DNA of 64,000 nucleotides from Haloplanus sp. XH21. Lineage in GTDB: Archaea > Halobacteriota > Halobacteria > Halobacteriales > Haloferacaceae. The stretch is taken from the NCBI RefSeq assembly GCF_023276355.1, contig NZ_JALLPL010000001.1, positions 372,001 through 436,000 on the forward strand, in the 5' to 3' direction. A model generated the notes under the pieces. It did no database searches, was not told the DNA's origin, and saw nothing but the letters and a program-made list of their open reading frames with translations. The translations under genes were made by a program, and so were the position numbers. Below are positions 51,617-53,249 of the stretch, piece by piece. Each line of letters begins with the position of its first letter. Positions within the stretch are counted from its first letter, which is position 1.

Positions 51617-51769
51617 TTATTCGTCCGTGTCGTTTCGGCGCCAGTGGCGCCGCTTCGGATTTCGCGTTACCTGTCGGTCCGTCTTGAGCATGACCCACGC
51701 GGGAACGCGGCTGTTCTGGTTCTCCAGTTTGGCGAGCCGCTTTTTCTTCGCCTTCGATTTCTTACCCAT
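51617..51769 (-). CDS. rpl39e: 50S ribosomal protein eL39
   Basis: The 50-aa protein [50 protein letters not shown] is a typical eL39, lining the exit tunnel. It is too short for common ORF cutoffs but unmistakable. It heads the operon rpl39e-rpl31e-eif6-rpl18a-pfdA-ftsY; a TATA box 25-33 bases upstream fits a leaderless start. Confidence 0.97.
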
Positions 51770-51964: not shown

Positions 51965-52482
51965 ATTCGATATAGCGATATAGAATTTATCTCGTCGGTG
52001 GCATAGTCGGAGGCCCCCTCGGTGTAGATGACCCGAGGAGATCGCCCGTGCTACGGGGCCATACGTCATCGACGGTAAGGAAGCGCCGGAAGCCCGATCA
52101 AGCTCAAATGCAGGGCGCCTCGCGGACATCTCTGTCGCGTGCGAACCCCCACCGAGACGACAGTGCTTGGGGGGAGCTCTGAGTTCCCGGCACACCGCGA
52201 ACGATTCTCGGCGAGTCGCGGAAGGATTGGGACCATCAGGGTGGTACAGTAGTCACTCCCCCTCGAACTCATCGGAGCGAGGACGATCCGACGATCGTGA
52301 CTGCACCCCGCGGGAGATCGGCCGAACTACAGCCAGACATCACCGCGCTCCCCACAGCACGCCGAGGATTCGCCCGCAGAGCAGGCCAGGCACGGCGACA
52401 GTGCCGCCCGGTACGGAATGCACCCGAAGCGTGTTGACACCGCCTCGATCCCCTGAATAAATCATATATCGCTATAGAGAAT
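51965..52482. repeat. 518-bp non-coding segment bounded by 26-bp inverted repeats
   Basis: The left arm (51965-51990, attcgatatagcgatatag then aatttat) and the reverse complement of the right arm (52457-52482) agree at 22 of 26 positions, sharing the exact core tatagcgatata. Both arms are A/T-rich inside G+C-rich DNA. The interior has no acidic ORF. It may be a MITE-like element or a pair of inward-facing TATA promoters; no clear target-site duplication is visible. The remaining DNA between rpl39e and thpR (51770-51964 and 52483-52534) holds only the operon promoter and nothing else I recognise. Confidence 0.6.
51992..52074 (+). ncRNA. Possible structured RNA (weak)
   Basis: A near-complementary pair gtcggtggcata (near 51994) and tacgtcatcgac (near 52063-52074) can close a stem with wobble pairs. 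Inside are smaller hairpins: cctcgg...ccgagg, cccgt-gct-acggg and ggcccc...ggggcc. The inverted-repeat TATA element lies just upstream. No known RNA family is recognised. Confidence 0.25.
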
Positions 52483-52534: not shown

Positions 52535-53086
52535 TTACAGCGGGTATCGCGCCACAGTGCGGTACTCCGGGCCCTCCGCCGTGAGCGTGCTCTCCGTGAG
52601 CCGGAGTGCGCTCACTTCGAGACGGCCCAGGGTGGGATCATCGTCCCGAACCACGCGCTGGACGGCTTCTTTCCCCCGCGCGTCGTCCATGCGGGCCAGG
52701 GTGACGTGCGGCGTGAAGTCGTGGTCTTCGGGATCGAACCCCAGCGCCGTCATCTCGCGTTCGACGGCCTCGTGGAGGCGCGTGAGTTCCGCGCGCCCCT
52801 CGCGGACGCCGGCCCAGACGACGCTGATGTATTCGAGGGAGGGGAAGACGCCGAATCCGGCGACGGTCATCGCGAACGGATCGACGCCGGCGTCGTCGAC
52901 GGCGGACGCGATTCCGCCCTCCACGGCGTCGAGGCGGTCGGGATCGACCTCGCCCAGGAACTTGATCGTGATGTGGGCGTTCTCCGGATCGACTGGGCGA
53001 ATACCGCCGGCGTCGGGCAGGCGTGACTGCGCGGCGGCGAGGGTGTCGGCCAGCGCGTCGACGGCGACGCTGACGAACAGACGCAT
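52535..53086 (-). CDS. thpR: RNA 2',3'-cyclic phosphodiesterase / 2'-5' RNA ligase
   Basis: The 183-aa protein has the 2H phosphoesterase pair of HxT/S motifs: HITIKFLGEV around residue 38 and HVTLARMDD around 130. Length and order match archaeal ThpR (LigT), which opens 2',3'-cyclic phosphates on RNA. The start is ATG 53086 (MRLFVSVAVD); upstream in-frame sequence is not acidic. It is divergent from the TPR gene, 163 bases away. Confidence 0.93.
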   Translation of the reverse strand: MRLFVSVAVDALADTLAAAQSRLPDAGGIRPVDPENAHITIKFLGEVDPDRLDAVEGGIASAVDDAGVDPFAMTVAGFGVFPSLEYISVVWAGVREGRAELTRLHEAVEREMTALGFDPEDHDFTPHVTLARMDDARGKEAVQRVVRDDDPTLGRLEVSALRLTESTLTAEGPEYRTVARYPL

Positions 53087-53249
53087 ACGAACGGGTGTCG
53101 GAAGCCGGCGAGGTAATACTAACGTCTGTAAGTCCGTGGAACGATTCGGTACCTCGGGGTACGAATCGTTCCATACAGTCACAGCCGACAGTATGAGTGC
53201 TTGGCCGGGTGACGCAGGCCTTAACCCGTCCGACACCCAATCACGACGC

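Follow-up and report, generated by a model that had tools for sequence, protein, structure and literature searches.

The window, that is, the whole 64,000-nt stretch of Haloplanus sp. XH21 DNA that was analyzed, carries an inverted repeat that brackets non-coding DNA, with thpR on one side and rpl39e on the other (Table 1). The repeat lies exactly where the original prediction had placed it, with 26-nt arms that are complementary at 22/26 positions (85%) and are separated by 466 nt. Both arms share the exact core TATAGCGATATA, and a search of the whole 2.94-Mb genome found this core confined to them. The interior, said in the original prediction to have no halophile-like ORF, contained no conserved ORF, and, as had also been claimed, no target duplication was seen around 51965/52482. 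No Rfam family matched in the window region at a low threshold, and when relatives of the interior were sought in the own genome and in 148 genomes of the family, the end sites alone matched. Thus, the predicted 518-bp unit held up as an inverted repeat, but what is conserved is the two end sites and not what lies between them; the interiors of other Haloplanus pairs differ in length and sequence. Beyond the pair, a near-perfect inverted repeat (TGGAACGATTCGGTACC...GGTACGAATCGTTCCA, 53137-53174) was observed between thpR and a divergently oriented TPR-protein gene; it came up as a chance Rfam match and looks like an operator or a hairpin.

Table 1. Features at the paired sites, in window coordinates.
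Feature	Position	Strand	Remark
Left 26-bp site, ATTCGATATAGCGATATAGAATTTAT	51965..51990	+	Inward-facing, ATTTA side pointing to the interior
Right 26-bp site, ATTCTCTATAGCGATATATGATTTAT	52457..52482	-	Inward-facing
Enclosed stretch, 466 bp	51991..52456		Without conserved ORF or Rfam family
rpl39e (ribosomal protein L39e)	51617..51769	-	First in the L39e-L31e-eIF6 cluster; adjoins the left site
thpR-like RNA 2',3'-cyclic phosphodiesterase (LigT_PEase)	52535..53086	-	3' end towards the right site

The same locus was compared among relatives. Upstream of rpl39e, 8 of 12 Haloplanus genomes had a clear inward pair, 2 had one clear site and 2 had none, and a pair was also present at this locus in one genome of another genus. 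The paired stretches ranged from 171 to 679 bp and were unrelated in sequence. Since the pairs recur while their interiors are unrelated, the sites were kept while the contents drifted. One of these pairs (L140 2676-3354, genome G090) contained ggattcgaaccac, which resembles a tRNA 3' end, repeated in tandem.

When the whole window region was used for a search of the family, many of the best matches elsewhere fell on the arms, and the arm query matched in 118/148 family genomes. Alignment of 78 copies gave a sharply bounded 26-bp logo with the consensus ATTCGATATAGCGATATACRATTTAY and unconserved flanks; its core is quasi-palindromic around TATAGC|GATATA. The window arms scored 47.9 and 42.0 bits against a motif of the site, compared with 12.7 bits for the next-best place in the window. 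A motif built without Haloplanus seeds scored the arms at 47.8 and 40.7 bits, and 3 Mb of simulated sequence topped out at 7.2 bits with it. Allowing at most three mismatches, the site was found in 113/243 Halobacteriales genomes and 50/77 genera, and the reversed control gave no match in the same 243 genomes at this threshold. Copies of the arms therefore occur across Halobacteriales, contrary to the possibility, named in the original prediction, that they are not repeated elsewhere. One consensus was shared by the sites at xerA, at rio2 and at two plasmid-recombinase families, with the centre being the most conserved part and its GC nearly invariant. The tenth position was C in 84% of the rio2 sites (L107-L136) and A in most others.

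Next, the arrangement of the copies was analyzed. Neighbouring copies faced inward in 72/78 cases, with 2 same-strand and 4 outward, at spacings from 170 bp to several kb. The own genome has four inward pairs, all on the chromosome: the window pair and those enclosing xerA, rio2-rpl15e, and a DUF7838 ORF plus gcvT. Random placement of its 15 sites would give an expected 0.05 inward pairs. Among 86 distinct pairs, the commonest enclosed unit was a XerA-like tyrosine recombinase with DUF5805 (35), followed by rio2 (33) and DUF5783/NifU (four), and about a dozen pairs had no conserved ORF inside. Rfam at the gathering threshold identified no RNA family in the related pairs. The rio2 gene is present in 145/148 family genomes, and inward sites lay on both sides of it at 27-28 of 30 loci; one site, polarity inward, falls at the rio2 stop, and the orientation of rio2 within its neighbourhood is constant across species. 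Many sites point at the 3' end of a gene. Three gene-less pairs of 887-899 bp were observed in other families (L227 4199-5086, L240 4957-5843 and L194 1501-2399), and their interiors are similar in length and unrelated in sequence. In three loci (L061 5172-5543, L069 5675-6414 and L074 7316-7708), a MarR-like gene lies just outside a pair, and in L069 it is followed by a PemK/MazF-like gene.

The xerA gene was present in 145/148 family genomes. Across 80 named xerA loci, which represent many genera, an inward site was found 3' of the gene in 77 and 5' in 64, and a reversed site in none; the 3' site lies 11-100 bp past the stop codon. The XerA-like protein (PF00589) conserves the catalytic R...HxxR...Y pattern across 12 diverse sequences and scores below the cut-off of the NCBIfam XerA_Arch equivalog (104.4 versus 220 bits). 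A RaiA-labelled database chain that matched XerA proved to be a recombinase-like sequence, only its name being odd. The order of the flanking genes raised the possibility of a site-specific inversion of the xerA module. This was rejected; the xerA tree has two clades that match the orientation. As two paralogue clades exist and Halorussus ruber (L259 3901-6999) keeps both divergently, the apparent flip is mostly differential loss. A second locus with divergent paralogues was observed in another genus (G103:C1:850030-853270), and only one of the two paralogues seems to survive in most lineages. Halorussus halobius (L299) has a clade-B xerA in a clade-A flank arrangement and is the only case left in which the module may really have flipped.

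DUF5805 is made from the xerA operon, which is itself enclosed by a site pair. The protein gave a weak NikA-like ribbon-helix-helix (RHH) match, under the Pfam cut-off, and its predicted structure combines an N-terminal RHH with a C-terminal winged helix at moderate quality (pLDDT 72, pTM 0.35). Comparison of this model with solved structures gave weak fold matches, none of which was significant. Sites occurred in 112/227 genomes with DUF5805 and in 1/16 genomes without it, that one being incomplete and the genomes lacking DUF5805 being mostly small or incomplete. This co-occurrence cannot separate DUF5805 from xerA because both travel together. Haloferax volcanii carries DUF5805. The stretch from the 5' site to DUF5805 (L252-L331) is a fast-evolving non-coding gap of ~0.25-2.3 kb, which is unusual for genomes as dense as these, and in Haloferax it contains a tRNA T-arm-like fragment.

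The plasmids of the own genome carry four sites, each of which precedes a tyrosine-recombinase gene by 86-250 bp and faces it. For homologues of two of these plasmid recombinases across the family, an inward 5' site was found at 37-40 of 60 loci and an outward one at 1, the sites lying 130-210 bp upstream; some of the homologues also have a 3' partner site. Many loci of the intC family of recombinases have no recognizable site. The same upstream arrangement was seen in 3/5 plasmids of other families; in plasmids of Halobacterium, Natrarchaeobaculum and Haloarcula, the site is ~200 bp upstream of the recombinase gene.

In the open-access literature, we found no published description of the site, nothing relevant on DUF5805, and no described haloarchaeal dif site or Xer partner. 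The window arms are two copies of a 26-bp site that is previously undescribed in the open literature searched. To the reading that they are protein-binding sites used in inward-facing pairs and recognized by one shared binder, with DUF5805 as the candidate, we assign a probability of roughly 45% on the basis of sequence comparison and structure prediction. One chromosomally encoded protein would bind all copies of the site, and DUF5805, with its predicted N-terminal RHH and C-terminal winged helix, may be that protein. Two bound sites would act jointly by bridging or looping the intervening DNA, such that the bridged pair sets apart and controls the enclosed unit, and a plasmid recombinase gene would be controlled by the lone site that precedes it. 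The window pair would be a stand-alone pair, since no gene is enclosed, and its spacing and orientation would count more than its contents. Of the three meanings offered originally, sites at both ends for a single regulator are the best supported, given the hundreds of copies, their strict inward orientation and their link to tyrosine-recombinase genes. However, for an ordinary transcription regulator, inward sites at gene 3' ends and pairs around gene-less DNA would be odd.

As the main alternative, the sites may be dif- or res-like core recombination sites for XerA and the plasmid tyrosine recombinases, serving, for example, chromosome or plasmid dimer resolution in which a site on one molecule would recombine with its counterpart on the sister. 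We regard this as possible and somewhat doubtful. The site is tied to tyrosine-recombinase genes of several families, it is like dif in length and in having A/T-rich arms on either side of a short centre, and the XerA-like protein retains the R, HxxR, Y pattern. Also, xer genes adjoining their site are already known: the xer gene lies beside its site in XerS/difSL (PMC5357621), and dif sites were predicted near xerA in Sulfolobales (PMC2958812). However, dif has inverted arms of 11 nt that are separated by a 6-nt spacer (PMC8371274), whereas the present site is 26 bp long, with its dyad at TATAGC|GATATA, and is conserved most strongly at this centre, which is thus unlike a free spacer. Descriptions of dif give it one copy per chromosome, at the replication terminus, and the chromosome studied here has at least four pairs. 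Moreover, divergent recombinases share one consensus. The common consensus and the most-conserved centre therefore favour one shared binder over recombinase-specific core sites. Exchange between paired sites was rejected because their identity excess vanished on within-genus shuffling, a test that covers exchange within a pair and not between sister sites. The fixed rio2 orientation and the hidden paralogy that mostly accounts for the apparent xerA-module flip also speak against recombination at these sites.

It is less likely that the sites are polar boundary elements, at which a bound site would stop RNA polymerase or other traffic and thereby insulate the enclosed unit. Such a role would suit the sites that closely follow the stop codon of xerA or fall at that of rio2, and the fixed inward polarity at either edge of a unit. 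Nevertheless, each genome has only a few such loci, and the idea would leave unexplained both the gene-less pairs and the sites that precede plasmid recombinase genes by 130-210 bp.

The original prediction had also offered two inward-facing promoters that make overlapping RNAs. The ATTTAY end can be read as a TATA-like box and nearly all pairs face inward, but rio2 and SRAP carry their own TATA-like box, which lies between the site and the start codon, ~30 bp from the latter, and 247 copies showed no common downstream promoter pattern. For these reasons, the sites are probably not promoters, and with copies facing gene 3' ends as well, we consider the two-promoter reading very unlikely. Even less probable is that the arms form the closing stem of a non-coding RNA spanning the enclosed stretch. 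Both strands do fold with a z of about -3, with the arms closing the fold. However, single sites also occur, the sequence itself is conserved beyond mere pairing, the arms of a pair resemble each other no more than they resemble arms of congeneric species, and the interiors are unrelated and without an Rfam match. The least probable reading, which the data contradict, is a MITE or other terminal-inverted-repeat transposon, to which a non-coding unit with terminal inverted repeats would correspond: the genome has a single full-length copy and no second interior, no target is duplicated, no exact site occurs in 2.9 million viral contigs, the pair is old (8/12 Haloplanus genomes and one of another genus), and across the order, single-copy core genes are bracketed by these same sites. 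Nor are the ends those of an autonomous transposon: they recur at xerA, at rio2 and at further core units, and at no transposase.

Returning to the shared binder, the pairs around the recombinase and a few core genes point to an unstudied DNA-binding system common to chromosomes and plasmids. More tentatively, we propose an order-wide DNA system in which convergent 26-bp pairs would be bound by one chromosomal protein from the DUF5805-XerA operon and form small loops or boundaries whatever they enclose, bracketing gene-less loci as well as a small number of core genes, and marking plasmid recombinase genes. A XerA-like gene is present in nearly every haloarchaeal genome examined, yet the searched literature describes no dif for it. 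A widespread, polar, paired site that is linked with plasmid recombinases as well as with xerA and DUF5805 thus offers a handle on recombinase and plasmid management, and in polyploid haloarchaea it possibly bears on chromosome dimers or loops.

Among known systems, archaeal XerA/dif of Pyrococcus, Thermoplasma and Sulfolobales similarly combines a XerA-like tyrosine recombinase with a short, A/T-rich, partly palindromic site, which adjoins xerA as predicted in Sulfolobales. It differs in its 11-6-11 organization, compared with 26 bp here, and in having one site per chromosome instead of many inward-paired copies; in the haloarchaea, conservation of the site peaks at its centre and the protein falls under the XerA_Arch cut-off. 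XerS/difSL and XerH/difH likewise have a single recombinase gene with its site directly adjoining, whereas the haloarchaeal site is also found at rio2, gcvT and gene-less DNA, and upstream of unrelated recombinases. In the pdif modules of Acinetobacter plasmids, gene units also lie between inverted sites, of Xer type in that case. In contrast, the haloarchaeal units are mostly vertically kept core genes within inward-facing pairs, and rio2 gives no sign of module shuffling. Finally, the operators of RHH proteins of the CopG/Arc/ParG/NikA type share with the present sites a short palindromic A/T-rich core and an adjoining RHH-protein operon; the haloarchaeal sites are distinguished by being paired inward at both ends of a unit, with DUF5805 as the candidate RHH binder.
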